17,317 bases of DNA from Bacteroides sp. CAG:144 (GTDB taxonomy: Bacteria; Bacteroidota; Bacteroidia; Bacteroidales; UBA11471): the NCBI GenBank assembly GCA_000434215.1, contig HF999745.1, positions 76,672 to 93,988 of the forward strand. The letters run 5' to 3'. How positions within the stretch are numbered: the first letter of the stretch is position 1; every line of letters begins with the position of its first letter. The notes beneath the pieces were generated by a model, which did no database searches, was not told the origin of the DNA, and saw only the letters and a program-made list of their open reading frames with translations. Shown here piece by piece: positions 1,411 through 17,317 of the stretch. The translations under genes were made by a program, and so were the position numbers.

Positions 1411-1441
1411 TATTTAACCCCAAAACCATTATTAAAAAACT

Positions 1442-2596: not shown

Positions 2597-2606
2597 TAGA
2601 ATCCAC

Positions 2607-2642
2607 AGATTGTTAAGGCCTTAGGCCTTAACAATCTTTTTT
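2607..2642 (+). terminator. Intrinsic terminator after fucO
   Basis: A perfect 14-bp inverted repeat (2607-2620 with 2624-2637) with a TTA loop and a GGCC-containing top is followed by a run of T to 2642. This is the classic form of a rho-independent terminator. It lies between fucO (stop 2594-2596) and the mutarotase gene (start 2664). The stem is self-complementary, but there is no matching T-run for the minus strand that would serve a convergent gene, and none is nearby. Confidence 0.9.
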
Positions 2643-2663
2643 CTCTTAAATCTTAAAACACAC

Positions 2664-3050
2664 ATGGAAACACCGCACACAGGATATAGGGTACAGTCAT
2701 ATAGCCAACCCGTTAAAAGATATTGTCAGACCCTCAATCTTAAAGAAAATCCCGAACTGATTGCTGAATATCGCAAACGGCACCTTAAAGAAAACGCCTG
2801 GCCCGAAATATTGGAGGGTATCAGAGAAGTAGGAATACTCGAAATGGAAATCTATATTTTAGGAAGCCGTCTATTCATGATTGTAGAAACGCCTCTCGAT
2901 TTCGACTGGGACGAGGCCATGCAACGCTTAAACACGCTGCCCCGCCAGCAAGAATGGGAAGATTATATGTCTATTTTCCAACAAGCCAAACCGGGAGCAT
3001 CATCGTCAGAGAAATGGCAGCAAATGGAGCGTATGTTTAAGCTCTACTAG
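2664..3050 (+). CDS. RhaM-family sugar mutarotase (probable L-fucose mutarotase)
   Basis: Small cytoplasmic protein of the L-rhamnose mutarotase family (RhaM, formerly DUF718), which interconverts alpha and beta anomers of 6-deoxy sugars so that the downstream isomerase is supplied with its preferred form. Visible family marks in the 128 residues are KRYCQTLNL near residues 18-26, the YRKRH segment with the putative catalytic His40, the following AWPEI (45-49), the EMEIYILGSRLFMIVET strands and a C-terminal W-x-x-M-E-R-M-F block. The first 15 or so residues extend beyond the shortest RhaM proteins, but no other start is available. The gene sits between fucO and fucP, so fucose is a likelier substrate than rhamnose; this is inference from context. 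It is not of the FucU fold family found in E. coli. It begins only 21 nt after a strong terminator. Confidence 0.88.
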   Translation: METPHTGYRVQSYSQPVKRYCQTLNLKENPELIAEYRKRHLKENAWPEILEGIREVGILEMEIYILGSRLFMIVETPLDFDWDEAMQRLNTLPRQQEWEDYMSIFQQAKPGASSSEKWQQMERMFKLY

Positions 3051-3210
3051 CATATCCAGACGAAAAACTATCAACACACGAAAAAGAGGCTGCAAAGAAA
3101 TTATCGGCCAACACATAGAACTCGTGTCATGAAAGAAATTTTCGCAGCAAAAATAAATTCCTGAATGACGGGGATTTCTTTAATGTTAAATCCTTTCAAA
3201 AAACAAATGA
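3051..3210. other. Intergenic region between mutarotase gene and fucP
   Basis: This 160-nt gap holds no supported gene. No clean TTTG / TAnnTTTG promoter pair is visible on the + strand. It contains an imperfect inverted repeat, CATGAAAGAAAT at 3128-3139 against ATTTCTTTAATG at 3174-3185 (11 of 12 positions pair), enclosing about 34 nt and ending about 25 nt before the fucP ATG. It could be a leader structure or chance; no T-run follows that would make it a terminator. Confidence 0.4.
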
Positions 3211-4437
3211 ATGAAACAAAAAACAAGTTTGGTACGAATGGCAGACGGGAGAAATTTGCTAGTACCTTTTCTATTGATAACAACACTCTTCTTTCTATGG
3301 GGATTTGCTCATAGCATTTTAGATGTCTTGAACAAACACTTTCAAGATGCATTGGGTATCAATAAAACAAAATCGGCTTTGGTGCAAGCGGTCGTATATA
3401 GCGGATATTTTCTAATGGCTCTACCGGCTGGAGAAATCATACGACGATTCGGATATAGAGTTGGAGTACTGACGGGTTTACTTCTTTATGGGTGCGGAGC
3501 ATTGTTATTCATTCCGGGCGGAGAAATAAAATCATTCGAATTTTTCTTATTTTCACTCTTCGTCATCGGCTGTGGATTGACCTGTCTGGAAACGGCAGCA
3601 AATCCATACGTAACGGTTTTGGGAGAAAAAAATTCCGCCGAACGTAGAATCAACTTAGCTCAGTCTTTCAATGGATTGGGCTGGATATGCGGTCCTCTGG
3701 TCGGAGGCTATTTCCTCTTCGGAAACGGTACCGGAGGAAACATTTCGATGCCATACGCTATTATCGGAGGAGTAGCTTTACTAGTAGCCCTCCTATTTTC
3801 GCGGGTAAAGTTGCCCGAAATCACACCTGAGGTCGATTCTACGGAAAAGAACGCAGACGGGGAAACTACCATACATAAAAGTTTATGGAAACATAAAAAC
3901 TTCACATACGGGCTTTTAGCATTATTTTTGTATATAGCAGCTCAAACCGGTATCAATAGTTTTTTCATCAATTATGCTACGGAAAATGCCGGCATATCGG
4001 CCCAAGAGGCATCTCTTTGGCTTTCGTTCGTCGGTATGGGGTTATTTACGGTAGGGCGTATGGGAGGTAGCTGGATCATGAGCAAAATACGTGCAGAAAA
4101 AGTATTGATCGTATGTGCTCTCGGTGCTACATTGGCTATGATACTGGCAATCTTTACATCGGGAATGGCTGGTGTAAGCAGCTTTTTCTTATGTTTCTTG
4201 TGCGAATCGATCATGTTCCCGACTATTTTTGCTTTATCCATTAGAGGATTGGGCGAACAGACCAAAAGAGCCTCTTCATTCTTGATCATGTCGATTGTCG
4301 GCGGTGCTATCGCACCTGTTCTAATGGGGTATATTGCCGATACTGTATCTATGTCTTTGGCTTTTCTCATTCCATTGGGCTGTTTCTTATTTATCTTAGG
4401 ATTTGCATTAAGTTTCAAAAAACTTTTACAAGCATAA
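3211..4437 (+). CDS. fucP: L-fucose:H+ symporter
   Basis: Inner-membrane sugar/proton symporter of the major facilitator superfamily, FucP branch, importing L-fucose. The 408-residue protein consists almost wholly of hydrophobic segments, consistent with 12 membrane helices and a charged loop near residues 205-230. The family start motif FFLWGFAHSILDVLNKHFQ lies at 27-45. The two acidic residues needed for transport in E. coli FucP (Asp46 and Glu135) have counterparts here at Asp38 and Glu127 (CLETAANPYVTVLG), with the same 89-residue separation. The ATG at 3211 is chosen; an ATG at 3207 is out of frame and closes at once. It is the last gene of the fucose unit, and its stop codon lies inside the stem of a strong terminator. 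Confidence 0.94.
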   Translation: MKQKTSLVRMADGRNLLVPFLLITTLFFLWGFAHSILDVLNKHFQDALGINKTKSALVQAVVYSGYFLMALPAGEIIRRFGYRVGVLTGLLLYGCGALLFIPGGEIKSFEFFLFSLFVIGCGLTCLETAANPYVTVLGEKNSAERRINLAQSFNGLGWICGPLVGGYFLFGNGTGGNISMPYAIIGGVALLVALLFSRVKLPEITPEVDSTEKNADGETTIHKSLWKHKNFTYGLLALFLYIAAQTGINSFFINYATENAGISAQEASLWLSFVGMGLFTVGRMGGSWIMSKIRAEKVLIVCALGATLAMILAIFTSGMAGVSSFFLCFLCESIMFPTIFALSIRGLGEQTKRASSFLIMSIVGGAIAPVLMGYIADTVSMSLAFLIPLGCFLFILGFALSFKKLLQA

Positions 4438-4482
4438 AAGAAAGAGGGGTATCAAAGATGATACCCCTCTTTCTTTTATGCT
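4431..4482. terminator. Bidirectional terminator between convergent fucP and M13 peptidase genes
   Basis: A perfect 24-bp inverted repeat (4431-4454 with 4459-4482) with loop AAGA. The top of the stem is GC-rich (GAGGGGTATCA) and the base is A-rich on one arm and T-rich on the other, so on either strand a stable hairpin is followed by a TTTCTTTT tract. It lies between fucP (+, stop at 4435-4437, inside the stem) and the M13 peptidase gene (-, stop at 4493-4495), and so fits a shared terminator for both transcripts. Confidence 0.92.
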
Positions 4483-4492
4483 AATTACTAAA

Positions 4493-6520
4493 TTACCAAA
4501 TCACAACCCGATCTTCGGGAGCCATATACATAGGCTGTTCGGGTGTAATTCCGAATGCCTGATAGAAAGTTTCGATATTCCGAAGTGCGGCATTCACACG
4601 CCATTTTCCCAATGAATGCGGATCAGTTTTCGTCCGACGTAGTATTTCCTCATCTCGAATGTTTGACGCCCACAAGTTTGCGTATGCCAAGTAAAAACGC
4701 TGCTCGGGAGTAAATCCGTCAATAATAGGCAACTTCTCTCCTTCCGTGGCATTTTCAAAAGCTGTGTATGCGACACGTAAACCTCCCTGATCGGCAATAT
4801 TCTCTCCCAAAGTGAAACGTCCGTCGGCATGTACTGTATCAATAACAATAATGCTACTATACTGATCGGCCAAAATATCGGCTCGGAGATTGAACTGACG
4901 CGTATCTTCGGAAGTCCACCAATCACTAAGGTTGCCATCTTTATCGAATTGACGTCCCATATCATCGAAACCATGTGTCATTTCATGTCCGATAACAACA
5001 CCGATAGCTCCGTAATTGACGGCATCATCGGCATCGGCATAAAAGAATGGTGGCTGCAAAATACCTGCTGGAAAACAGATTTCATTGGTAGTCGGGTTAT
5101 AATAAGCGTTCACGGTCTGCGGGCTCATATACCATATCGACTTATCGACCTCCTTGCCTACTTTTTCGAGCATATAAGCCGTCTCGAATTTAGAGGCGTT
5201 TTTAAGATTTTCCCAGTAACTTTTCTCGGGAGATATTTCAAGGGCCGTATAATCGCGCCATTTGTCGGGATACCCTATTTTGACCGTTATCGCCGCCAAT
5301 TTTTCAAGAGCACGAGCTTTGGTTTTTTCGCTCATCCAATCGAGATGTTCGATGTGTTGTTGTAGCGCCTTCTGCAAATTCGCGACCAATTTCAACATAC
5401 GATTTTTCGACTCCTGCGGAAAATATTTTTTTACATATATCTCACCCAATGCCTCACTCAAAACAGCATCGGTTGTCGCAAGCGAACGTTTCCATCGTAA
5501 CCGGGGTTCTTGTTGACCGGATAAAGTCCGTCCGTAAAAATCGAATTTGGCCTCATAAAACTCATCGCTCAAATACGACGCGGCACTATTCAATACCGTA
5601 AACGCCATATAGTCTTTTACTTCCTGTAATGAAAGCCGAGTATATAACTTGTCTACTCCATCGATAAATGCCAATTGTCCGGCATCGATGTATTGTAAGC
5701 TATCCACTCCCAACGATGTAAAAAAGCCATTCCAGTCAAAACCTTTTTCTCGCCTCAGAAAATCGGTATACGACATTCTATTGTAATTTTTCTGCGGATC
5801 CCGTAATTCCACCCGGGTATAAGAAAGGCGAGCCAATTCGGTTTCTATTTTCATAACCGATTGAGCCGCTTTTCGGGCCGATTCGGGAGAATACCCTGCT
5901 AATGTAAACAAGCGCTCTATATATTTTATATAAGATTCCCTCAAAGCGATATTCGTACTATCTGCCGACAAATAATAATCACGGTCTCCCATAGCAATAC
6001 CGCCTTGATTAAGGCTCAACAAATTCACGCTGCTATTCTTGCTATCCGGCCCGACATATACAAAAAAGAACGGATATACCCCTTCGGCATGAAGCCGACC
6101 GATAACAGACGACATATTTTTCATATCCGTAATCCCATTTATCTCTTCCAAATCGGCAACCACGGGTGCAAATCCTTCGGCATTGAGGCGTACACTGTCA
6201 AGCCCCAAATTGTACAAATCACTTACTTTGGCGGCAATACTTCCATCAATTTGTTTCTTCTCTGATAATTCTGTAACCAAAGTGTGCATTTGCTCCTCGC
6301 ACAAATCGGCCAATCGATCGAATGAACCATAACGGCTATATTCGGGTTTCAACGGATTATTGGCAATCCAACCACCACAAGCATACTGATAAAAATCGAC
6401 TCCGGGCGCTACACTCAAATCAAAATTAGACTGGGATAGCGGTTTCTCTTTCTCTTGTTTTCCCGAGCAAGCCGAAAAAGTCAGTGCTGCCATTAACGAT
6501 AACATCATTGTTTTTTTCAT
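4493..6520 (-). CDS. M13-family zinc endopeptidase (neprilysin/PepO type), lipoprotein
   Basis: Cell-envelope zinc metallopeptidase that cleaves peptides. The 675 residues match the full length of the family. The N-terminus is a lipoprotein signal (MKKTMMLSLMAALTFSAC) with lipid-bearing Cys18. The M13 N-terminal domain starts with PGVDFYQYACGGW (39-51). The catalytic domain holds NAYYNP (471-476), the zinc motif HEMTH (512-516) with catalytic Glu513, and the third ligand Glu573 in GENIADQGG, with Asp577. The protein ends in Trp, as is usual for the family, although the common Cys four residues from the end is absent (VVIW). It starts 30 nt after the ABC-F gene, so the two are probably co-transcribed, although no functional link is evident. 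The start ATG at 6520 gives the intact signal peptide. A pepO label is possible, but the physiological substrate is unknown. Confidence 0.95.
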   Translation of the reverse strand: MKKTMMLSLMAALTFSACSGKQEKEKPLSQSNFDLSVAPGVDFYQYACGGWIANNPLKPEYSRYGSFDRLADLCEEQMHTLVTELSEKKQIDGSIAAKVSDLYNLGLDSVRLNAEGFAPVVADLEEINGITDMKNMSSVIGRLHAEGVYPFFFVYVGPDSKNSSVNLLSLNQGGIAMGDRDYYLSADSTNIALRESYIKYIERLFTLAGYSPESARKAAQSVMKIETELARLSYTRVELRDPQKNYNRMSYTDFLRREKGFDWNGFFTSLGVDSLQYIDAGQLAFIDGVDKLYTRLSLQEVKDYMAFTVLNSAASYLSDEFYEAKFDFYGRTLSGQQEPRLRWKRSLATTDAVLSEALGEIYVKKYFPQESKNRMLKLVANLQKALQQHIEHLDWMSEKTKARALEKLAAITVKIGYPDKWRDYTALEISPEKSYWENLKNASKFETAYMLEKVGKEVDKSIWYMSPQTVNAYYNPTTNEICFPAGILQPPFFYADADDAVNYGAIGVVIGHEMTHGFDDMGRQFDKDGNLSDWWTSEDTRQFNLRADILADQYSSIIVIDTVHADGRFTLGENIADQGGLRVAYTAFENATEGEKLPIIDGFTPEQRFYLAYANLWASNIRDEEILRRTKTDPHSLGKWRVNAALRNIETFYQAFGITPEQPMYMAPEDRVVIW

Positions 6521-6550
6521 AACATCGGTATTTAGTTATTTTGCTTATAT

Positions 6551-8518
6551 TTATTTCTCACTTACAGATACTTCTTTTCGCATTTTTTCCAGTATATCTG
6601 TCTGCTCGACCCATAATTCCGTTAAAGCTTCGGCATCTTTCTTCAAAGTTCCGTGTTTCATACATAAATCTATATCGGCCATACCCTCTGGAGTAGCCAG
6701 ACGAGCTTCGATAGCAGAGATTTCTGTATCAAGTTTTGCCAAACGCTGTTCGGTATCGGCAATAGCACGTTCCTGACGTTTCAATTTCCTCTGCCACTCT
6801 TTACGGGCTTCAAACGACAACTTATTTTCTACGGTAGAAGTCGATGTCTTTTCAGCCGGAATTTGAGATCGATCCTGTGATCTCGATTTTACTTCCAACT
6901 CTTTTAACGAAGCCATTTTTTTCGCCGCCAAAAAATCATATATCCCGCCTAAATGTTCTCGAACTTTCTGCTGCCCGAACTCGTACACTTTCGATACCAA
7001 TCCATCAAGAAATTCCCTATCGTGCGATACGACGATAAGAGTCCCGTCAAAATCTTTCAGAGCCTGTTTCAGAACATCTTTTGTACGCATATCGAGATGG
7101 TTGGTTGGTTCGTCGAGAATCAACAGATTGACAGGTTCGAGCAACAAACGAATCATGGCAAGCCGCGTCTTTTCTCCTCCTGACAAAACTTTCACCTTTT
7201 TTTCCGAAGCCTCTCCACCAAACATAAACGCCCCCAATATATCTCGTATTTTGGTACGAATATCACCGACAGCCACTCTATCTATCGTATCGAATACCGT
7301 TACAGATTCGTCAAGAAGCTGAGCTTGATTCTGCGCAAAATATCCGATTTTCACATTGTGTCCTATTTTCAACTCTCCATCATAAGGAATCTCTCCCATG
7401 ATACATTTTACAAGTGTAGATTTTCCCTCGCCGTTCTTCCCGACAAAAGCGACTTTTTCTCCTCGCTTGATTGTAAAATCGGCATGTGCAAAAACAACAT
7501 GGTCGCCATAACTTTTCCCCATATTCTTAGCAATAACAGGGTAATCACCCGACCGAGGAGCTGGAGGAAATCGTAAACGCAATCGGGAATTGTCTACTTC
7601 GTCGACCTCTATGCGTTCTATTTTTTCCAGTTGTTTGATACGCGACTGTACTTGCACCGACTTTGTGGCTTTATAACGGAAACGTTCGATAAATGCCTCG
7701 GTATCCTGTATCTGCTTCTGCTGATTCTCAAAGGCCCGCTGCTGCTGTTCAAGACGCTCGGCTCGTAACTGCACATATTTAGAATAATTCACCCGATAAT
7801 CGTAAATATGCCCGAGAGAAATTTCGATCGTACGATTGGTTACATTATCGATAAACGCCCGGTCGTGTGAAACCAATACAACGGCATTGGCCCTTGTGGA
7901 AAGAAACATTTCAAGCCACTGTATCGATTCTATGTCCAAATGGTTAGTAGGCTCGTCGAGCAACAATACATCGGGGCGTTGCAAAAGCAATTTGGCCAAT
8001 TCGATACGCATACGCCAGCCGCCACTGAACTCGGAAGTCGATCGGTTAAAATCACTCCGCAAAAAACCAAGTCCCAATAGCGTTTTTTCTATTTCGGCCT
8101 GATAATTACCGTTGCCCGACAGTGCAAGTTGTTCGCTTACCTGAGAAATACGGTCGATCAATTCCTGATACGAATCACTTTCATAATCGGTACGTTCGGC
8201 CAATTCTGTATTCATTTGATCAAGACGTTCCTGCATCTCCTGAATATGAGAAAACGCCAATGCTGCCTCCTCGGTAACCGTACGGCTATCAGAAAGTTGC
8301 ATTTGCTGCGGCAAATACCCAATGGTTATATCTTTGGGCATATTTACCGATCCTGCCGACGGTTGTTGAAGCCCCGCTATGATTTTGAGCATAGTAGACT
8401 TGCCGGCACCGTTTTTACCGACCAATGCTATACGGTCTTTTTTATTAATGACATACGTTATCTTATCGAGCAATGTAAACCCACCGAATTCTACGGTCAG
8501 ACCCTCTATTGAAATCAT
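6551..8518 (-). CDS. ABC-F family ATPase (Uup/YheS-like ribosome-associated)
   Basis: Soluble protein with two ABC ATPase domains and no membrane segment, typical of ABC-F translation factors that bind the ribosomal E site. From the ATG at 8518 the protein has 655 residues. Domain 1 has Walker A GKNGAGKS (34-41), a signature FSGGW and Walker B LLLDEPTNHLD. An arginine- and glutamine-rich linker follows. Domain 2 has Walker A GKNGEGKS, signature LSGGEKTRLA and a second LILDEPTNHLD. A charged coiled coil of about 85 residues closes the protein, as in Uup and YheS. The longer frame to 8554 would use a TTG and adds 12 residues absent from the family, so ATG 8518, giving MISIEGLTVEFGG, is preferred. 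It is likely housekeeping; acquired antibiotic-protection ABC-F proteins usually lack this C-terminal tail, but that role cannot be excluded by eye. Confidence 0.93.
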   Translation of the reverse strand: MISIEGLTVEFGGFTLLDKITYVINKKDRIALVGKNGAGKSTMLKIIAGLQQPSAGSVNMPKDITIGYLPQQMQLSDSRTVTEEAALAFSHIQEMQERLDQMNTELAERTDYESDSYQELIDRISQVSEQLALSGNGNYQAEIEKTLLGLGFLRSDFNRSTSEFSGGWRMRIELAKLLLQRPDVLLLDEPTNHLDIESIQWLEMFLSTRANAVVLVSHDRAFIDNVTNRTIEISLGHIYDYRVNYSKYVQLRAERLEQQQRAFENQQKQIQDTEAFIERFRYKATKSVQVQSRIKQLEKIERIEVDEVDNSRLRLRFPPAPRSGDYPVIAKNMGKSYGDHVVFAHADFTIKRGEKVAFVGKNGEGKSTLVKCIMGEIPYDGELKIGHNVKIGYFAQNQAQLLDESVTVFDTIDRVAVGDIRTKIRDILGAFMFGGEASEKKVKVLSGGEKTRLAMIRLLLEPVNLLILDEPTNHLDMRTKDVLKQALKDFDGTLIVVSHDREFLDGLVSKVYEFGQQKVREHLGGIYDFLAAKKMASLKELEVKSRSQDRSQIPAEKTSTSTVENKLSFEARKEWQRKLKRQERAIADTEQRLAKLDTEISAIEARLATPEGMADIDLCMKHGTLKKDAEALTELWVEQTDILEKMRKEVSVSEK

Positions 8519-8574
8519 AATAGTCGTGTTCTTAAATTTTGCCTGTTTCCACAATAGGCATTCTCAAAACACGG

Positions 8575-8811: not shown

Positions 8812-10755
8812 CTACCACCACTGTTGTATACCGTTTTTATAAATAAAGATCCGTTCTTCTGCCCCTCCGCTCAAATTATGTAATATATACAATTTTCCTG
8901 CCGGAACTTTTTGAAAATCGAGATAATAATCGGTAGCGGTCTTTTCTCCCACACATTGCCAAGAAAAACCGTCCCAATACTCCAAACGATAATGATTCCC
9001 CGGAATAATAAAGTTTGTATCGCTTCGGGGTACATAGCGTATCCGCGTCAATGTGTGATCATTTCTTTCACCCAAATCAAGTGCTACATACCCTTCTACT
9101 TTCTTATCTTTTCTAAAATAGGTACTATAATCACCATCGACAGCTTGTTCCCAACCTGTTTCTATTTCATTCTCCGGGACGCCAAATGCAAATCCGTTCA
9201 AAGCCTGTTCTTCTTCCGTACCTTGTTTCCGACCATAAAAAACTATTTCTGCCAAATTACCCTCACGATTATCATCAAATTTCATTCGAACATATCTATA
9301 TGGACGAGTAACATTTAAGATAGAATCGACTATATCTTGTGCATCTCTATCCAAAACAGTCATTACAATTTCCGAGTCTGAAAAATCTGGATTGTCCGAG
9401 ACCTCCACTGTTGCTCCTAAAAGAGCCTTCGAAAACGAGGTAATACGTGTAAATTTCGGATATTTACGAGTCAGATGCATATCGACAAAACCGGACGTAT
9501 CGGATCGGATATATTCTATTCTGCCTTCCTTGTCGAGAATAAAGGGCGGTGTCGCTGGGACAAAGGTACTCTCATCGTAATAACCAGCCATATAGCAAAC
9601 ATCGCCTATCATATTTTTGAAATAGAACTTGCCCTCGGACACCTGCCCGTAATCGACCGGCTGCCACTCCTTGTTATCGAACACGCAGATTACGCCATAC
9701 GGGAACGATCTATATCTATCAGTAACCTCAGGATCACCGGCAACATCTACATCGAATGTCGGAAAATAAAGATGCGATACATCGATTCTATCCGACGCCA
9801 ATAAATACCCGGGAACATACTCGGCAGCATTTTCATTCACATCTTGTATCTCAAAAGTCTGGCGAAATATTTTAGCCGGTTTATAGGTAAAAAAATACCG
9901 TTTTCTATCCAAGGCATCGAAAGGAAGAAACTGGCCACTATCTTTCAAAACAACCACCCACTCGTGCCCCTGACTACGGTTTCCCCAATGATTGACATAA
10001 TCTATCGTTGCCGGAATCCCACATGCTCTCAAAGTAAGTACATAATATTCGCTCATGTGCCGGCACGATCCACGTCGAGCCTGTTCCACCTTACTCCTCG
10101 GCAAAGAGATGGGATATCCCCACATCAATCGGCTATTTTTATACTTACGTACTCTATCGAACTCATGATACAACTCCTTGATAAGACGGTCATCGTTGAT
10201 AATAAGCGAATCTCGGATTCTCCGGAATTGCTCGAAATGCCTTTTACGATACGGTTCCAAAGGTTCATTTCCTATACGGTACGGCAACACGTACCGGCAA
10301 AAAAGGTCGAAATCTCGGGATATGAAATCCGGAACTGTCTGCCACGCCTCAAAAGCCGTCTCTATCTCCTCTATCAAAAACTCTGCCGAAACGGTTTCCG
10401 TATCATACTGTCGTCCTAAATACAAAGGTTGCAGTCGTCCGTATTTGTGCAACAGATTCCACCAACATTGCTCGACAAGAGCAGGATCGGATTCGGAATT
10501 ACCACTCCTATATAATCTTTCATATAGCGAAAATATTGTATCATAGCGTTCTATCTGTTTATCCCTATACCCAAATTTCCCGGGCATATTTTCTATTAAA
10601 AATTCCGCAGCCACCCTCTTCAAAGAATCATTGGCGTAAAAATCCAACACTTTTTCCACCTCATCATTTGGTAAAACCGGAGCTTCCAATACATTACAGC
10701 TCCATAAAATTTGCATCAAAAGCAAAATCGAAAAAATACATCTTGATATACTCAT
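8812..10755 (-). CDS. Transglutaminase-like lipoprotein with C-terminal discoidin-like modules
   Basis: Predicted lipoprotein of 647 residues. The signal MSISRCIFSILLLMQILWSC gives lipid-bearing Cys20. A transglutaminase-like (papain-fold) core carries the triad Cys231 (RRGSCRHMSEY), His264 (QGHEWVVV) and Asp280 (LPFDA); such domains act as proteases, transglutaminases or amidases, and the substrate here is unknown. Residues of about 430-510 and 520-625 resemble discoidin (F5/8 type C) beta-sandwiches (VDGDYSTYF, VALDLG, YRLEYWDG), suggesting glycan or surface binding. The protein ends in NGIQQWW. The start is fixed by a strong Shine-Dalgarno before the ATG at 10755; the longer frame to 10815 would need a TTG and would overlap the upstream gene. 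It lies 25 nt after the Wzy-like gene and is thus probably the last gene of the RiPP-like operon. Similar proteins also occur outside such clusters, so a role in peptide maturation is only an inference. Confidence 0.87.
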   Translation of the reverse strand: MSISRCIFSILLLMQILWSCNVLEAPVLPNDEVEKVLDFYANDSLKRVAAEFLIENMPGKFGYRDKQIERYDTIFSLYERLYRSGNSESDPALVEQCWWNLLHKYGRLQPLYLGRQYDTETVSAEFLIEEIETAFEAWQTVPDFISRDFDLFCRYVLPYRIGNEPLEPYRKRHFEQFRRIRDSLIINDDRLIKELYHEFDRVRKYKNSRLMWGYPISLPRSKVEQARRGSCRHMSEYYVLTLRACGIPATIDYVNHWGNRSQGHEWVVVLKDSGQFLPFDALDRKRYFFTYKPAKIFRQTFEIQDVNENAAEYVPGYLLASDRIDVSHLYFPTFDVDVAGDPEVTDRYRSFPYGVICVFDNKEWQPVDYGQVSEGKFYFKNMIGDVCYMAGYYDESTFVPATPPFILDKEGRIEYIRSDTSGFVDMHLTRKYPKFTRITSFSKALLGATVEVSDNPDFSDSEIVMTVLDRDAQDIVDSILNVTRPYRYVRMKFDDNREGNLAEIVFYGRKQGTEEEQALNGFAFGVPENEIETGWEQAVDGDYSTYFRKDKKVEGYVALDLGERNDHTLTRIRYVPRSDTNFIIPGNHYRLEYWDGFSWQCVGEKTATDYYLDFQKVPAGKLYILHNLSGGAEERIFIYKNGIQQWW

Positions 10756-10763
10756 ATTCAATT

Positions 10764-10770
10764 CTCCTTT
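10764..10770 (-). promoter_or_regulatory. Strong Shine-Dalgarno sequence deciding the transglutaminase start
   Basis: The minus strand reads AAAGGAG, eight bases upstream of the ATG at 10753-10755. The other genes in the window show no comparable motif, as is common in Bacteroidota, so this site is both unusual and decisive for choosing the start that yields an intact lipoprotein signal. Confidence 0.8.
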
Positions 10771-10780
10771 AAACGTACGA

Positions 10781-12787
10781 TCAAATCGCCAATGACTTTT
10801 TATACCAAACTTCAAATAAAAAACGATATTGCTTCCATATCAAATCCTCTATATTTTTCTCCTCTGCCGGCTTATAATCATTTCCTGTAAAAATTCCCTG
10901 TGCCGTTACTCTTCCCATACGATTATATTGGTACGCCTTATCTACTAGACCTTTTCTCTCATATATACACGCCAAGTTAAACCACACTCTCGACAGATTT
11001 GGCAATTGTTCATTCGAGCTAAACAAATAAAATTCGGCCGTTTCAAAATCGCCAAGCTGCATAGCAATACTTCCATATTTAGCCAAATCAATAGGATTAG
11101 AAGGCTTCTGCGAAATATGTATCAACAAAAAATTTACAACTCGTTCAGTAAATTCTTTGTCGTAAAACCGAAGTTTTTCCCAATAGGTCGTTTTTAAAAT
11201 ATTCGGTTCTTGCAATACGACAGAAACAAACATTTCTATTGCTTTATCTACAAATCCTTTCTGCCGATATATTTTATATAATTCCCATTTGAAAATAAGT
11301 TTATCAGGATAAACTGATATCCATTTTTCCAGTTCTTTTAAAAACGTATTTTCCGCTTCCTTAATGGAATATAAGCGCACATAAAATGATAAGTGAATAT
11401 CCAATGGGCTTTTCTTTAAGGCTTTTTCAAAATAACAAAGAGATCTTTCAACATTTTTATCCCGCAAAAAAATTGCTCTGTTGACCATAAAAGAAAAACA
11501 TTCCTTACTATTCCTGTTATAAAGAACCAGTCCAACCACATATGTCATCACTATACAAGGCAAGAAACAAAGTATGACTGGAAAATTCTTCTTCTCTCTT
11601 TCACATTCTACCCTTTTACTTTGTAAAAAAGCTACAAGGAAAAGGGTTGATAATTGTATAACCTTCGAATCGAACATTGTCGAAAAGGTCTGCTCCCTAA
11701 CAAAAAAAGCCATTAAAAACAACGATATTATCCATAATTTCCGTTCTTTTCTCTTTATCAATAAAAAAACAATAGACCAACAAAGTATCAAATATATACA
11801 CACACCACAATAACCATACTCAATAAAAAGTTTTGAAATTGTATTGGGTGCATATGTAGTGTAAGAATCAACCCTTTTATCACCAACCTGATAATAATCT
11901 TTCGCCAAAGTATAGTTATTCAGACCTACACCCCAAGGATATTTTTTCAAGATATCGGAGGTAATTGACATGGCCTTTACTCTCCCATCTATACTTCTTT
12001 GTTGAGAAACAGTCTTATTTATTTCAAAAACTTTTTTCGTTTCATGAGGAAATAAGAAAAAAATTCCTATTATAAAAATAGCACAACTACCCAACAGAAA
12101 TTTTTCCCGATCTACAAATAATCTCTTTCTTTCCAGTATAAACAAAACAATGGCAAACACCAGTGCCGATAAATATATTCCTCTCGAAAATGACAATAAC
12201 AATTGACACAATACCATACAGCCAGTTATAGCAGCAAGAGCCTTGACTTTTCGATTCTCAACATAAAAATATGCGATTGCCAATATGCCCCCGAATAACC
12301 ATTGTAAACTACTCCATACATTATTGGAAATTCCCAATGGAGCATACAAAAACCTGAAATCATACAACGAAGAAGAACCCGCATTATGGACAGTCTCGGA
12401 AAACAGATAATATATATAGAAAGATATAGTTAACAAAACAAAAATGCATACGGTAAATATAGAAAGAAGGTAACCCGCAAATTTTCCATAATAGGTAAAA
12501 ACATACCTCAAAATAAAGTAAGCAAATATATTTGTTATCAAATAAACGAGCATCACATTAGTATTTATCGTATTAACTGATGGTAAAAAAAGCCCGTACG
12601 CTCCTAACAAAATAATACAAATATCACAAACACCCACTTTCAAAGGCCGTATAAATATGAATATCATTAAGCTAAAAACCAATAACAACAATTGTACAAA
12701 ATACGTATCCTTGATATAAAAAAAATCAGCAAGGAACACAAATGTCAATAAACAGCAACTCGATATGCAAACCAACTGTTTCATCAT
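10781..12787 (-). CDS. O-antigen ligase/polymerase-like (Wzy_C superfamily) membrane protein with TPR tail
   Basis: A 668-residue inner-membrane protein. Residues of about 5-425 form a string of hydrophobic helices. The Wzy_C marks are LSFSRGIYLSAL (198-209, Arg202), a large periplasmic loop with GRVKAM (268-273) and YPWGVGLNNY (283-292), and PNTISKLFIEYGYCG (314-328), where WaaL-type enzymes usually have His-Asn in place of Pro-Asn. Residues of about 430-640 are helical repeats of TPR type, for instance ERSLCYFEKALKKSP and AIEMFVSVVLQEPN. The superfamily includes O-antigen ligases, Wzy polymerases and PglL-type protein O-glycosyltransferases, all of which move a lipid-linked glycan in the periplasm. 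It overlaps the M50 gene by four bases (ATGA), so the two are translationally coupled. No other polysaccharide gene is in the window, which argues for a role tied to this cluster rather than to LPS. Confidence 0.86.
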   Translation of the reverse strand: MMKQLVCISSCCLLTFVFLADFFYIKDTYFVQLLLLVFSLMIFIFIRPLKVGVCDICIILLGAYGLFLPSVNTINTNVMLVYLITNIFAYFILRYVFTYYGKFAGYLLSIFTVCIFVLLTISFYIYYLFSETVHNAGSSSLYDFRFLYAPLGISNNVWSSLQWLFGGILAIAYFYVENRKVKALAAITGCMVLCQLLLSFSRGIYLSALVFAIVLFILERKRLFVDREKFLLGSCAIFIIGIFFLFPHETKKVFEINKTVSQQRSIDGRVKAMSITSDILKKYPWGVGLNNYTLAKDYYQVGDKRVDSYTTYAPNTISKLFIEYGYCGVCIYLILCWSIVFLLIKRKERKLWIISLFLMAFFVREQTFSTMFDSKVIQLSTLFLVAFLQSKRVECEREKKNFPVILCFLPCIVMTYVVGLVLYNRNSKECFSFMVNRAIFLRDKNVERSLCYFEKALKKSPLDIHLSFYVRLYSIKEAENTFLKELEKWISVYPDKLIFKWELYKIYRQKGFVDKAIEMFVSVVLQEPNILKTTYWEKLRFYDKEFTERVVNFLLIHISQKPSNPIDLAKYGSIAMQLGDFETAEFYLFSSNEQLPNLSRVWFNLACIYERKGLVDKAYQYNRMGRVTAQGIFTGNDYKPAEEKNIEDLIWKQYRFLFEVWYKKSLAI
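12784..12787 (-). promoter_or_regulatory. ATGA start/stop overlap (translational coupling)
   Basis: The TGA stop of the M50 protease gene and the ATG start of the Wzy-like gene share four bases (ATGA on the minus strand). Such overlaps usually mean re-initiation by the same ribosome and balanced amounts of the two membrane proteins. Confidence 0.85.
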
Positions 12788-13992
12788 GATTCTTTATATA
12801 CACGTATCTTCTTGTAAAATGGATATATGATCCGGTACAACATATAAAATGCCAATACCAAGAATAATAATTGAAGAACAATTTGTTGTACATTCGACCA
12901 GTCCGGAGTTTGGCGATATGACAATTCTCTTATCAATAGACTGAAACGATCAGGAAAAGTTTCATAAAACCGTACGAAAAACAAAGGTAAAACATAGAAA
13001 AAGTAAAATCCAAAAAACAAATTGACTACAACCGTATAAACTACTAATCCAGATTTTGCTCCCCGGGATAACGCAAATAAATAGGGTCGATGCTCTACTT
13101 TTTTATTCTTTATTTTACTCAAAACATATCCAACCCATTCTGTCCCCTTTTTTCGTAAATTGGCAACCCCCAAAACATCTGACAAAATCCAATATCCGTC
13201 AAATTTGAAAAATGGATTCAATGTAATAACAAAATTCATATTCATCACCACAATTATATATTTGAAAAATGGGTAATGAAAGAAAAAATAAGCTATAAGA
13301 AACGGTATTAATAAAACCATCTGAAAATACACACCACCTATATTGATCAGAAAACGCTCCCTTCGAGGAAGTTTCCATGCCTGAGAAACATCGGTATAGA
13401 AAACAGGAATATTAAGATATAATCCGAAGCCAATATTTCCATGAGGAATCTGAAAATAATGACAAGCTGATGCATGCCCCAATTCATGTATCAACGACGA
13501 AAAAATAAAAAACAGGAATAATCCTATTACTGTATAGATACTCAGATCAACGTGTATAGTTTCAGTATAAAATTCTGTAAAATGAATAAAATCCAGAATA
13601 ATAAATATACCGACAATCGCCATCATCACACGGCTATCGAAAAGTATTTTCAGAGAAGAAGCGCACTTTCTTACTTTCTCGGACGAAATCAAATCGTGCC
13701 GATAAAGAAATACTCCCTTTTTAGTCGAGGATACCTTTCCCTCCGCAATTTTCGACGACAGCATTTCCAAAAATTCGATGACATCGTCTTTCGACGGATG
13801 TCCATCATGACTTTCTACATAAGTATCCACTGCCACTTCATCGCAACCATTTTCTTTGAGGTAATTCAGCAACTCCGCCGCATCTTTTCCTATTTCAAAG
13901 AAATGATTATTAAATTCCATCAAAAAAGTTGTATGCAACGACGAAGTAGAAAAAGGTCCCACTGTTATACGCATCAAATCAAAATTATCCAT
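12784..13992 (-). CDS. PqqD-like domain fused to M50 membrane metalloprotease
   Basis: A 402-residue protein. Residues 1 to about 95 look like a PqqD-type RiPP recognition element: a beta-rich start (TTFLMEFNNHFFEIGKDAAE, 21-40), then helices ELLNYLKENG and DVIEFLEMLSSKI. The rest is an M50 intramembrane zinc protease with about six membrane helices, motif HELGHASACHYF (169-180) and the third-ligand motif NPFFKFDGYW (259-268) with Asp265. Related putative peptide zinc metalloproteases sit in peptide-maturation operons, for example YydH in the YydFGHIJ epipeptide locus. The expected role is binding the leader of the modified peptide and cutting it at the inner membrane; this is inferred from family and context. 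The ATG at 13992 follows the outer-membrane protein stop by 6 nt. No HlyD-like adaptor domain is present. The gene is AT-rich. Confidence 0.88.
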   Translation of the reverse strand: MDNFDLMRITVGPFSTSSLHTTFLMEFNNHFFEIGKDAAELLNYLKENGCDEVAVDTYVESHDGHPSKDDVIEFLEMLSSKIAEGKVSSTKKGVFLYRHDLISSEKVRKCASSLKILFDSRVMMAIVGIFIILDFIHFTEFYTETIHVDLSIYTVIGLFLFFIFSSLIHELGHASACHYFQIPHGNIGFGLYLNIPVFYTDVSQAWKLPRRERFLINIGGVYFQMVLLIPFLIAYFFFHYPFFKYIIVVMNMNFVITLNPFFKFDGYWILSDVLGVANLRKKGTEWVGYVLSKIKNKKVEHRPYLFALSRGAKSGLVVYTVVVNLFFGFYFFYVLPLFFVRFYETFPDRFSLLIRELSYRQTPDWSNVQQIVLQLLFLVLAFYMLYRIIYPFYKKIRVYKES

Positions 13993-13998
13993 AACCGA

Positions 13999-16311
13999 CT
14001 ATTCTAGAATTGTTGACTGATTAATATCTTTTATTTCTGTACTATGGAATTTGTGTTTTTTCTTACCAAACGTAAAACGATAGTTGACCGTCAACTGGAA
14101 CATATTGTCATAGGTGCGTTCATAACGCATCGCATTGATTTTTGAATATGACAATCTTTCATACCAACCTTTAAACGTTGTTTTCATAAAAGGACTCAAT
14201 GTCCTGAATTGGATATTCCAACCTTTTATGGAGTAACCGACATTCAAATCAAAACCTCCCGACGATTGAATTTTCGTCCCAGATTTTTCTATATAAGAAC
14301 GTTTAGGGGCATACCCTGCCGAAACCGACCAGCCTTTATGAAAAAAATAACAATCGATTGACACATTATACGAATCACCATATATCGTTTTCCAATATGC
14401 TAACTTTTCATGCTTATAGTTTCCATATACCTCAACCATCAATTTTTGGGGTATAATACTATATTGCAACTGTAATTCATAACTTTGCGATATAGAATTA
14501 CCACTACTTCGCTGCTGACAGACAAACATATCTCTGTCAGCAGCGTATTCGATATTGGTATAAGGTGAACGGTAATCTCCTCCGAATATAAAACCCGCAC
14601 CCACAAAGAATCGATCTACTACCCAAGTATAAATAGCTCCGGCTTGATATTTTCGCCAATCTTTCAACCCGGGATTTCCTACGGAAATTTCATAAATATT
14701 ACGACGGTACTCCGTAGCCGTGAGGTTGGTAATACTGGGCGAAGAACCTGATGTTTCGGCAACTATCTGTAACATATGTGTTTTATACATATATGTCATT
14801 TGCAATGATGGTACAAACATATGATCGAAATAGGTATCAGCACCTGTTTGGCTGAATGATAAACGTTCTGCTAATCGCAAACGCAAATTCAAACGATTTT
14901 TTACCTTGTAATTATAGGTAAGATATAATTGTGTGTTGCCTCGGTTCAAATATACGTCGGATACCACACCTTCACGCGCGTTGCGATCGTCGGTGCGGGT
15001 AAAGTCCTGATTGGCTTCTACATTAAATGACGAACGATTCTTGAATGTTTTGGTATAATTGATTTTAAACCGTCCATACCAACTCGATTCGTCGGTTGCA
15101 TTATCATAGGCCGAAGCTATTACATCATCGATTCGATAAACATACCAACGTTTGTAGTCGTTATTACCATAACTGCCATACCAATCCATACGCAAACGCT
15201 GGTCGTTTTTCAACGCACATTCATACCAAAACGACAATGCCGGAGACAAACCGGTCGAATGCCGGTTTTCTTGCATAGTATAGGTTTCGGGGGTATTGCT
15301 GAATGTCTGACTATTCCATACATCATTCTCTCTCAAGTTTTGATTCAAACGAAAAGAAGAATAGACACTCTGTTTTTTATCTTTATATATGTAATTGAAA
15401 TAAGAACGCAAATTATTACTGTTTTTTTGTGAAGGTAGTTCTTGGGTCGTATTCACATTCGTTCCATCAGGAAAACCGTAAGCCGTTTCTGTATAATTTT
15501 CGCTATTGTAGTTACTAAAACAATCATAGCTGTCGGCCACAGAAAGGGCAAATTCCGACTTCCCTTGAAAATATTGAGCCGTCCCCCGAGCACTACCTGT
15601 AGGTTTATTTAAGTTATGCTGACCATTGACTGCAACCGTACCGGCATAGTCCCGCTCTTTCAGTACATAGTCAAACACAACATCAGCTTTGGGATAGTCG
15701 GTATTACCATTGGTATAGAAATCGATTCGCTTGATATCTCGCGGATTCAAATTGTTTACCTCGTCTTCGGTGGCTTCCCGTCCGTCAATGCAGAACAATA
15801 TCTCTCGTCCCATATAAGTCGGTTTCTGGTCGTATATGCCGATGCTCACACCGGGTATGGTCATTGTTCTCAACAAGCTGTTTCGGTCATACACATGACG
15901 TAACTGTTCACGAGTAGGGTATATCATCGTTTTTTCAGCAGTGTGCACCGTATGATTACCCGTAACAATAACCTCCTGTATGAGTGCAGAACTCCGGCTC
16001 AAAGTAATATCGCCAAGCCGCACCAACTTTTCTTCGGTAGGATTCAATATAAGGGTCATCTCTTTATAACCGAGATAGCCTATTTGCAGACGAAACGCCT
16101 GTTTCCCCCCCGATAGTTTCAATCTAAAATCTCCTTTACTGTCAGTTATCATACTAGCAACAAGAAGAGTATCGGAAGTAAAACAACATACCGTTGCCCC
16201 TATCAGGTCATTCCGCTCACTATCCCGCACATGACCTTCCACCTCGATGGTCTGTGCCATAACAGATGGAATAGTTGTAAATATGACGATAAAAAAAACG
16301 ATATATTTCAT
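13999..16311 (-). CDS. Outer-membrane beta-barrel protein with carboxypeptidase-regulatory-like N-domain (TonB-dependent-receptor-like)
   Basis: A 770-residue outer-membrane protein. It begins with a Sec signal peptide, MKYIVFFIVIFTTIPSVMA, and then a carboxypeptidase-regulatory-like domain (about 20-95, with VEGHVRD, LIGATV and GDFRL). A plug-like segment follows (VQEVIV-type IQEVIVTG, LLRTMTIPGV, ILFCIDGREAT, IKRIDFYTN). The remainder shows alternating hydrophobic and aromatic strands typical of the OMP_b-brl family, closing with LTVNYRFTFGKKK about 20 residues before the end. The ATG at 16311 is chosen because it starts the signal peptide; the longer frame to 16335 would begin with TTG within the T-run of a hairpin. 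No clear TonB box is seen. Barrels of this class are often found beside peptide-maturation genes in Bacteroidota and may export, receive or sense the product. The gap to the precursor gene is 108 nt. Confidence 0.9.
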   Translation of the reverse strand: MKYIVFFIVIFTTIPSVMAQTIEVEGHVRDSERNDLIGATVCCFTSDTLLVASMITDSKGDFRLKLSGGKQAFRLQIGYLGYKEMTLILNPTEEKLVRLGDITLSRSSALIQEVIVTGNHTVHTAEKTMIYPTREQLRHVYDRNSLLRTMTIPGVSIGIYDQKPTYMGREILFCIDGREATEDEVNNLNPRDIKRIDFYTNGNTDYPKADVVFDYVLKERDYAGTVAVNGQHNLNKPTGSARGTAQYFQGKSEFALSVADSYDCFSNYNSENYTETAYGFPDGTNVNTTQELPSQKNSNNLRSYFNYIYKDKKQSVYSSFRLNQNLRENDVWNSQTFSNTPETYTMQENRHSTGLSPALSFWYECALKNDQRLRMDWYGSYGNNDYKRWYVYRIDDVIASAYDNATDESSWYGRFKINYTKTFKNRSSFNVEANQDFTRTDDRNAREGVVSDVYLNRGNTQLYLTYNYKVKNRLNLRLRLAERLSFSQTGADTYFDHMFVPSLQMTYMYKTHMLQIVAETSGSSPSITNLTATEYRRNIYEISVGNPGLKDWRKYQAGAIYTWVVDRFFVGAGFIFGGDYRSPYTNIEYAADRDMFVCQQRSSGNSISQSYELQLQYSIIPQKLMVEVYGNYKHEKLAYWKTIYGDSYNVSIDCYFFHKGWSVSAGYAPKRSYIEKSGTKIQSSGGFDLNVGYSIKGWNIQFRTLSPFMKTTFKGWYERLSYSKINAMRYERTYDNMFQLTVNYRFTFGKKKHKFHSTEIKDINQSTILE

Positions 16312-16333
16312 TATATTATCATATAATGTATAC

Positions 16334-16412
16334 AAAAATTGAGGGTAATCAAGATTTATACTGAATATAATACCATATATAATTTAAAAATATAGATCTC
16401 TCACACCCTCAA
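16334..16412 (-). terminator. Possible leaky terminator/attenuator after the precursor peptide gene
   Basis: On the minus strand an 8-bp stem (TTGAGGGT at 16405-16412 pairing with ACCCTCAA at 16339-16346) can be extended at its base by AAAA/TTTT across one bulged G. The 3' arm is followed by five T (16334-16338). The 58-nt loop is long and AT-rich, which weakens the call. Its place between a highly expressed type of gene (precursor) and its accessory genes fits a partial terminator that adjusts stoichiometry. Confidence 0.4.
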
Positions 16413-16419
16413 CTTTTAT

Positions 16420-16641
16420 TTATAAATCAAATTCTTGGCAATATTCTGAACAGTATTGCTTACATTTTCCATTACATATACAAATGCATTCATCCGAAGA
16501 ATCAGAACTATCCATATTCAACAACGCCGCTATTGCTAACGGGTCTGTTTCCAATCGTTGTTCCAGCTCATCTAAATAAAAAGCTGGCAACTCTTCGTTC
16601 AGAGAACGAAGTTCATTTTTCTTCTCTTTCATAATTTTCAT
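16420..16641 (-). CDS. Cys-rich RiPP precursor peptide (putative radical SAM substrate)
   Basis: A 73-residue peptide, Lys/Glu-rich at the start, without signal peptide or double-glycine motif. Residues 1 to about 43 look like a leader, with an amphipathic helix ELPAFYLDELEQRLETDPLA (17-36). A Ser/Asp stretch DSSDSSD (44-50) leads to a tail ECICICNGKCKQYCSEYCQE (51-70). Six Cys stand at 52, 54, 56, 60, 64 and 68; five of them (52, 56, 60, 64, 68) are exactly four residues apart, and Asp72 continues the register. This CxxxC pattern recalls CXXX-repeat peptides and thioether-forming ranthipeptide substrates of radical SAM/SPASM enzymes. The gene lies 15 nt after the maturase gene. ATG 16641 is used; ATG 16632 is also possible. 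A plain metal-binding peptide is the main alternative. I do not recognise an exact named family. Confidence 0.8.
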   Translation of the reverse strand: MKIMKEKKNELRSLNEELPAFYLDELEQRLETDPLAIAALLNMDSSDSSDECICICNGKCKQYCSEYCQEFDL

Positions 16642-16656
16642 TTTTAAGTTAATAAA

Positions 16657-17317
16657 TCAGTTATTTAATTGCAGATCTGCATACGCTTTATTGACAGCAT
16701 AACGCACAATATCTTCCATACGAAGACAATGATGTCGTTTCAGATTATGAGCCGGACATCCGCATCCGCATAACAAAGCATATTTGCACACGGTACAAGC
16801 CTGAATCTCTGATATATGCGCCTTATGCCAATTGTCGAGAGGTTCCTGACTCCAAGAAACACCGCCAGCACTCGCATAATGACCTATGCAGTGTTCGGGC
16901 CGGCCTACGACTTCCCAGCAAGGATAGATATTACCATATGGATCAAAAACAAAGCTTCCAGTCTGCGCTCTACAAAAAATAGGATGAAAAGACAGAGGTT
17001 TTTTCCTCATAATGGCTTGATAAAGTTTATCAAACACGCCATAATCCTGATATTCAAATTGAGATTTAGAAACACTATGCTTTTGAATAAATTCTCGTTG
17101 CGTCAAGTAATGATAAGTATTGTCCGTTTCGGATTCAGAATAATCAACCAACAATGCCGAATTCATTGAAAAAAGCGGATTTTCGACATACTGTAAACGC
17201 TCGAAAATCGCTTGTAACTCTTTCAAATCTTCGATATTCTCCCTATCTGTATTAACCCGTACAGAAACCTGAACACCTCTCTTCAAAGCCAAACCGATAT
17301 TATCCAAAATACGGTCG
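16657..17317 (-). CDS. Radical SAM/SPASM peptide maturase, C-terminal part (cut by right window edge)
   Basis: The frame is open to the right edge, so this is the C-terminal part of a longer protein; the CxxxCxxC cluster motif of the SAM domain would lie outside the window. Counting from the codon at 17305-17307, the end of the TIM barrel is seen as VQVSVRVNTDRENIEDLKEL (13-32). A complete SPASM domain follows: Cys112, G125-x4-Cys130, C171-x2-C174-x5-C180-x3-C184, and Cys194, the seven-cysteine pattern that binds two auxiliary iron-sulfur clusters. Two additional Cys (140, 182) are also present. Such enzymes install thioether or carbon-carbon crosslinks, or other changes, on peptides. The precursor gene begins 15 nt downstream, so the Cys-rich peptide is its likely substrate. 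Identity as radical SAM rests on the barrel end and the SPASM domain. Confidence 0.87.
   Translation of the reverse strand, partial: DRILDNIGLALKRGVQVSVRVNTDRENIEDLKELQAIFERLQYVENPLFSMNSALLVDYSESETDNTYHYLTQREFIQKHSVSKSQFEYQDYGVFDKLYQAIMRKKPLSFHPIFCRAQTGSFVFDPYGNIYPCWEVVGRPEHCIGHYASAGGVSWSQEPLDNWHKAHISEIQACTVCKYALLCGCGCPAHNLKRHHCLRMEDIVRYAVNKAYADLQLNN

Follow-up and report, generated by a model that had tools for sequence, protein, structure and literature searches.

How does a Gram-negative gut bacterium, whose modified peptides must cross two membranes, release the product of a ribosomal peptide pathway? Described Bacteroidales clusters mostly encode peptidase-containing ATP-binding cassette (ABC) exporters, according to passages of PMC10352776. 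The question is raised by a 17,317-nucleotide stretch of Bacteroides sp. CAG:144 (contig HF999745.1, positions 76,672 to 93,988; hereafter the window), which ends in six minus-strand genes for a radical S-adenosylmethionine (SAM) enzyme with a SPASM domain, a small Cys-rich peptide, an outer-membrane barrel, an M50 protease, a Wzy_C membrane protein with tetratricopeptide repeats (TPR) and a transglutaminase-like lipoprotein (Table 1). We consider the chances about even that these genes are a recurrent Bacteroidales cassette in which the precursor is crosslinked, its leader cut, the product finished or conjugated, and the result then carried out through the barrel. The initial annotation had described an operon resembling those for ribosomally synthesized and post-translationally modified peptides (RiPPs), with radical SAM enzyme, precursor and M50 protease; the loci of relatives back this, and its six genes, their strand and the intergenic gaps of 15, 108, 6, -4 and 25 nucleotides are all exact on the recomputed frame coordinates.

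The six genes recur together. Loci were picked by alignment of the M50 protease in one genome per species, giving 62, of which 38 are nearest and 24 more distant. All six genes are found in 12 of the 38, the cassette-type Wzy_C gene in 35 and the lipoprotein gene in 22; since contig ends cut many views, these are lower bounds (in the locus table, longer overlapping or fused frames also hide the M50 entries for L001 and L033). The gene order of the window is kept in five loci (L001 of Xylanibacter rodentium, L002, L004, L005 and L006), and in others the lipoprotein gene lies upstream of the radical SAM gene or on the other strand. None of the 24 more distant loci carries a cassette-type Wzy_C or lipoprotein gene. 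The set is rare. A match to the M50 protease at 1e-30 occurs in 4 of 393 genomes sampled across the order, with at most four candidates scored per genome, two of the matches being strong and one of these two the known centre genome; within the genus, 8 of 149 genomes do so at 1e-60, of which three had been known before. In eight further stretches, the six strong M50 matches all carry the cassette (four with all six genes, one with a different, MacB-type exit, one lacking the Wzy_C and lipoprotein genes), and the two distant ones show no other cassette gene. These stretches are of limited independence: the L141 protease was already in the M50 alignment, L142 is closely related to L143, and L145 is similar to L021 (Bacteroides acidifaciens DSM 15896).

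That six unrelated genes merely became neighbours, with no single pathway behind them, is hardly credible. One or more are missing in L009, L013, L032, L041 and L144; against this, the full set is present in the 12 loci and the four further stretches, the spacing is tight and includes a 4-nucleotide overlap, and the set recurs in different surroundings. The co-occurrence that the initial annotation proposed to look for thus exists in Bacteroidales, if sporadically, and a recurrence in 12 of 38 relatives indicates that the arrangement is not due to chance. As an exact and obligatory unit the six-gene set had to be given up: L032 and L041 hold only the trio of radical SAM enzyme, precursor and protease, L144 is partial, and eight of the 38 loci (type B) use the MacB-type exit.

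Searched against 5.8 billion proteins, the product of 73 amino acids has 25 relatives, a count that takes in window-like copies and pieces. Alignments of these relatives show a near-invariant leader (ELxSLN...LExRLETDPL) followed by a hypervariable, Cys-rich core. Across 39 precursors, Cys accounts for 1 of 1411 leader residues and 175 of 1549 core residues; the median core has five, and 38 of the 39 have at least two. The most frequent spacing between core Cys is four (43 of 137 intervals). At three residues after Cys, Tyr shows a 5.3-fold enrichment. This pattern is only suggestive of the thioether crosslinks of ranthipeptides or sactipeptides. The cores of two Prevotella loci (L004, L006) contain a seven-residue repeat unit, Cys-x-x-Asn-x-x-x. 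The loci thus show the precursor with a conserved leader and a variable core next to a maturase gene that defines a RiPP cassette; the scanned precursors have no NCBIfam match and the window precursor no Pfam match. Our precursor model finds 28 places in 18 of 22 genomes, all 22 picked for carrying the cassette or its M50 protease, and 27 of these places lie at the M50 locus. The 28th contains internal stops and lies on another contig, adjoining a cassette-type radical SAM gene. Leader-like peptides were also noted by eye in a locus of Chloroflexi and scored at 22 bits in one of Blastocatellia, where the peptide lacks Cys and no radical SAM gene was matched in view. Some loci hold several precursors: six different ones stand in tandem between the radical SAM and M50 genes in L020 (8241-9864, plus strand), three in L029, and two each in L019 and L031.

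The radical SAM/SPASM enzyme is predicted to crosslink the precursor core, probably by links of the thioether type, with the leader serving for docking. The SPASM domain in the window matches TIGR04085 with 54.4 bits (cut-off 27), and the full-length relatives align with CX3CX2C and SPASM Cys residues; the nearest solved enzyme by sequence is 5wgg (1.4e-25). A single locus, L037 of Rikenella microfusus, departs from this scheme. It has no SPASM enzyme of the cassette family, either at the locus or genome-wide. Instead, a radical SAM gene adjoins a divergent Wzy_C gene; its closest model is the RiPP C-methyltransferase TIGR03975 (197 bits, cut-off 282), and it has a B12-binding match under the respective cut-off. 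The L037 precursor keeps the leader, and its core lacks Cys and ends in ITVTVTVKF. The only Cys-free precursor of the 39 thus sits in the only locus with a B12-type enzyme. This co-variation of maturase and core, a single case, fits a leader that would act as a common docking handle. A TPR protein is encoded near the radical SAM gene in L001, L004, L005, L006, L012, L021, L038, L141 and L145; one member that was scanned bears a weak resemblance to the FimS and BT3442 models. In three scanned cases (L004, L005, L012) a small DUF3244 protein is also encoded there; both are possibly regulatory.

In the M50 protease, the HExxH and NPxxxxDG motifs are invariant in all 24 aligned relatives. Twenty of the 24 match PF02163 at E up to 1; the window protease itself has no Pfam match of note. 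It reaches 86.6 bits with the NCBIfam model daptide_HExxH (cut-off 300) and 46 bits with YydH/LiaK (cut-off 225), thus falling short of both the daptide and the epipeptide model. The initial annotation had labelled it a PqqD-M50 protease, and the PqqD part of this label finds no backing, as PqqD is absent from the 16 families listed for the 24 members (Pfam, E up to 1). The predicted role of the protease is to remove the leader and set the product free in the periplasm, and passage over the inner membrane may be part of this step, as for EpeP, an M50 protein thought to perform both cleavage and export in the account given in parts of PMC10885120. In L033 (2552-5836, plus strand), a single open frame of 1094 codons spans the M50 protease and a TonB-type barrel, and the junction between them resembles a signal peptide.

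The barrel would then provide the exit. The only family matches of the window protein are to CarboxypepD_reg models, below their cut-offs; its predicted structure is that of a TonB-dependent transporter, with a plug and a large barrel, and a conserved EVxV segment precedes the plug. Among the 32 of 38 loci with enough view, 29 have an exit module: 21 (in addition to the window) have the barrel, eight have MacB-type permeases, none has both and three have neither. The barrel count includes L010, scored at 76 bits and thus slightly under the threshold of 80. Left out were L018, L027, L035 and L036 for their short view (that of L027 stops in a TolC-type piece), L030, with a barrel piece on the other strand, and L037, with a different TonB-type barrel (PF14905). 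In the eight type B loci a MacB/ABC/TolC-type set stands in place of the barrel, and Paraprevotella clara has one locus of each exit type (L023 and L031). A Fisher test gives 1.2e-5 for this exchange, a value that treats kin as independent, since the M50 tree needs about two changes. We therefore rejected the notion of many independent swaps; the swap, seen within one group, is real and the sample is small. Three tandem pairs of MacB-type permeases occur in one cassette (L028, 1890-9270, plus strand).

The initial annotation had drawn attention to an outer-membrane protein in place of the peptidase-containing ABC exporter that one might expect, and the relatives support this. No C39 match was found among the six window proteins, the window ending inside the radical SAM gene, or in the single type B ATPase listed (L022, E up to 0.01). 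Export through a barrel of this fold also has a precedent, as PopC secretion needs the TonB-dependent transporter Oar of Myxococcus according to part of PMC6434023.

The barrel could also be read as an importer or receptor, with the Cys-rich peptide secreted for metal binding or signalling and then retaken by its producer. Methanobactin receptors are a precedent for such re-uptake; importers of siderophores, copper and B12 share the predicted fold, the barrel has the conserved EVxV segment, and the cores, as given above, are rich in Cys. We nevertheless regard this reading as unlikely. It would leave the barrel-bearing (type A) loci without an exit protein and the type B loci without a receptor, when in fact the two modules substitute for one another, and the window cassette shows no inner-membrane uptake partner up to the point where the window ends inside the radical SAM gene. 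The TonB-transporter-type barrel likely carries the product outwards over the outer membrane.

Between protease and barrel, the Wzy_C protein and the lipoprotein likely finish or conjugate the product in the periplasm, the peptide being their presumed substrate. The window Wzy_C protein matches PF04932 with 48.1 bits (cut-off 31.7), and residues 3-396 of its model adopt the WaaL fold with two conserved arginines kept, so that both domain and predicted fold agree with an O-antigen ligase or O-oligosaccharyltransferase. (With the full model, Foldseek returned TPR chains within the top 50, and WaaL emerged in a second look.) The catalytic histidine of the ligases is absent in all 31 cassette members, where its position, set by alignment to the HN of 7tpg and 9rmk, is taken by Pro, Gly or Ser. 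In PglS this histidine is the proposed base, and H324A served as an inactive control, as described in sections of PMC12800693. The glycan-transfer label of the initial annotation therefore stands as to fold and arginines and is weakened by the missing histidine. Loss of the histidine is no mark of the cassette, since HN at the motif is found in none of the 10 cassette frames and in none of the 17 further Wzy_C frames that could be scored in the same genomes, 3 of 30 loci being unscored and the alignment loose for about half of the other frames; one non-cassette frame has an HN elsewhere.

It is very improbable that this protein is an ordinary polysaccharide ligase or polymerase and a mere operon neighbour. 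The above-cut-off PF04932 match and the WaaL fold speak for it, as does a second, broken cassette-type copy in genome G491 (C3:2344788-2346754, minus strand), away from the M50 locus. Against it, the protein is present in 35 of 38 cassette loci and lacks the ligase histidine, and the cassette members stand apart by score, with 10 above 400 bits and the other Wzy_C frames in 30 loci below 36 bits or unmatched, a separation that is partly circular as the majority of these 10 went into the model.

The lipoprotein of the window matches Transglut_core (PF01841) with 28.9 bits (cut-off 23), and Cys231 and His264 are present in 19 of 19 members, as expected of a transglutaminase-like protein. Its discoidin label in the initial annotation held in part: the window protein has no F5/8C match and two relatives match under the cut-off, and the family profile matches the carbohydrate-binding chain 2yb7 at 1.1e-32. 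Attachment of the peptide to the cell surface is possible. A fate close to that proposed initially, in which the Wzy_C/transglutaminase-like pair fixes the peptide to an envelope glycan or protein instead of its being released, appears rather improbable to us, given the 31 of 31 members without the histidine (in PglS the presumed base, as cited) and the exit module in 29 of the 32 loci.

The pairing of Wzy_C protein and lipoprotein is wider than the cassette. Among the 37 such lipoproteins of 13 genomes, 29 have a Wzy_C gene no more than 10 kb away, where 0.88 would be expected; 17 of the 29 belong to no cassette, and NVEALA peptides and a signal peptidase accompany some of these. Seen from the other side, the non-cassette Wzy_C loci of these genomes (L093-L112) have a lipoprotein within 10 kb for 18 of 45 Wzy_C/TPR proteins, and some also have NVEALA peptides, a signal-peptidase-like gene and DUF1573 proteins. 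Of the NVEALA peptides (PF14055), 20 of 50 are encoded within 10 kb of a Wzy_C gene. These loci resemble the cassette in that small Cys-containing peptides lie near Wzy_C genes, some with the same lipoprotein type; they differ in that the peptides read open with a hydrophobic segment, in some cases with a signal peptidase I nearby, and no cassette-type radical SAM or M50 gene was matched near the Wzy_C genes listed. In three genomes (L101, L104, L106), what looks like a gene set for a resistance-nodulation-division-type pump adjoins the Wzy_C gene. Because the pair also adjoins these unrelated peptides, a shared envelope machine suggests itself. Tentatively, and on the doubtful side, Bacteroidota may possess such a machine for short ribosomal peptides, built of a histidine-less WaaL-fold/TPR protein and a transglutaminase-like, glycan-binding lipoprotein, with interchangeable exits that include an exporter barrel. 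Its two unrelated inputs would be Sec-type NVEALA peptides, with their own signal peptidase, and RiPPs modified by radical SAM enzymes and released by M50 proteases.

Several observations weigh against a single crosslinking-to-export pathway. The trio occurs without barrel, Wzy_C and lipoprotein genes in L032 (Saprospiraceae, 21 kb seen) and L041 (Ignavibacteriales, 8 kb seen, leader-like peptide with 17 bits). L144, from the same genus as the window, has only radical SAM, precursor, barrel and M50 genes; its whole genome lacks a cassette-type Wzy_C gene, and no lipoprotein gene is present up to 20 kb away. In Phocaeicola coprophilus An818 (L009) the barrel, M50, Wzy_C and lipoprotein genes are retained, and neither this genome nor that of L014 contains a radical SAM enzyme or precursor of the cassette families; in P. 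coprocola (L013), a radical SAM gene and a stop-bearing precursor lie on another contig. These three are possibly decaying or split cassettes. The exit swap takes only about two changes in the M50 tree. Most TonB-dependent transporters serve import. A PqqD-type leader-binding domain could not be assigned, comparison of the N-terminal part of the protease with solved structures giving nothing convincing. For the third transglutaminase residue (Asp/Asn), the lipoprotein alignment shows no conserved acidic column among positions 265-291. Finally, product, transcript and activity are predictions from the genes, and so is export through the barrel.

Directly 3' of the precursor stop lies an RNA hairpin with a folding z-score of -3.63 against 200 shuffles. 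At the same place, 9 of 11 relatives with a barrel gene after the precursor have z of -3 or below (L001 and L015 lack a strong hairpin), and their sequences differ. The element would yield more precursor than enzyme from one transcript, and such a precursor-biased transcript is likely its purpose. A T-rich run 3' of the stem is clear in few relatives, so both a terminator and a processing or stability element are possible. A simple scan for intrinsic terminators gave no enrichment (4 found, 5.5 in shuffles) and did not list this hairpin.

Table 1. Features of the cassette in the window, and the variant maturase and core of L037
Feature	Position	Strand	Basis or remark
Radical SAM/SPASM maturase, C-terminal part	16657..17316	-	5' part beyond the window edge
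Precursor peptide, 73 amino acids, 6 core Cys	16420..16641	-	Leader ELRSLN...LEQRLETDPL; 25 proteins in search; alignments
RNA hairpin, 16-bp outer stem	16332..16419	-	Directly 3' of precursor stop; folding against shuffles
TonB-dependent-transporter-type outer-membrane barrel, N-terminal carboxypeptidase-regulatory-like domain and plug	13999..16311	-	Predicted structure
M50-type intramembrane metalloprotease	12784..13992	-	HExxH and NPxxxxDG invariant; daptide_HExxH and YydH/LiaK under cut-off
Wzy_C (WaaL-fold) membrane protein, C-terminal TPR domain	10781..12787	-	PF04932
Transglutaminase-like lipoprotein, C-terminal carbohydrate-binding-type (discoidin) domains	8812..10755	-	PF01841; Cys231/His264; 2yb7 match
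B12-type radical SAM enzyme replacing the SPASM enzyme, and Cys-free core under the same leader	L037:2950-4806; L037:9700-9900	-; +	

The rest of the window (1-8521) is an ordinary flank with genes for L-fucose isomerase, lactaldehyde reductase, a fucose permease, a PepO-like peptidase (its match below the cut-off) and an ABC-F protein. Carriage of the cassette by a plasmid was rejected, the best plasmid match being just 31.5% identical over 71%.

The core logic of radical SAM enzyme, precursor and M50 protease is known. Epipeptide loci (YydFGHIJ/Epe), which occur in a Gram-positive setting with an ABC pair, have the same three genes adjacent; the cassette has a different leader and a Cys-rich core, and in addition an outer-membrane exit module and the Wzy_C/lipoprotein pair. 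The Cys-rich peptide maturase models TIGR04463, Clo7bot, CefB, PapB and SCIFF are among the best NCBIfam neighbours of three full-length radical SAM relatives (best 25 models listed for each), all under their cut-offs and with TIGR04463 best at 149.6 of 525 bits. From WaaL and PglL/PglS, whose fold and two arginines it shares, the cassette Wzy_C protein differs by Pro, Gly or Ser for the histidine and by the added TPR domain. The barrel shares its plug-barrel fold with TonB-dependent transporters, Oar being the precedent for a secretion role (PMC6434023, in part), and differs in its place within a RiPP cassette and in giving way to a MacB/TolC-type set in relatives. The RiPP clusters with peptidase-containing ATP-binding transporters in PMC10352776 are likewise rich in radical SAM enzymes and come from the same order; in the portions concerned, seven of nine described clusters have C39 peptidase transporters, mostly with GG-type leaders, and the main text never uses the terms 'M50', 'O-antigen', 'ligase' and 'transglutaminase'. 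In the open-access literature searched, a scope outside which subscription papers and preprints fall, we found no description of the cassette, no account of its exits, Wzy_C/lipoprotein pair or link to NVEALA, and no paper on NVEALA peptides.

With one leader family, two alternative exits and one different maturase, the cassette offers a test of a TonB-type barrel as a RiPP exporter. The shared Wzy_C/lipoprotein pair provides a first functional handle on the NVEALA peptides and on the many Wzy_C TPR proteins of Bacteroidota, of the 'O-antigen ligase' type by name, which may act on peptides and not on O-antigen.

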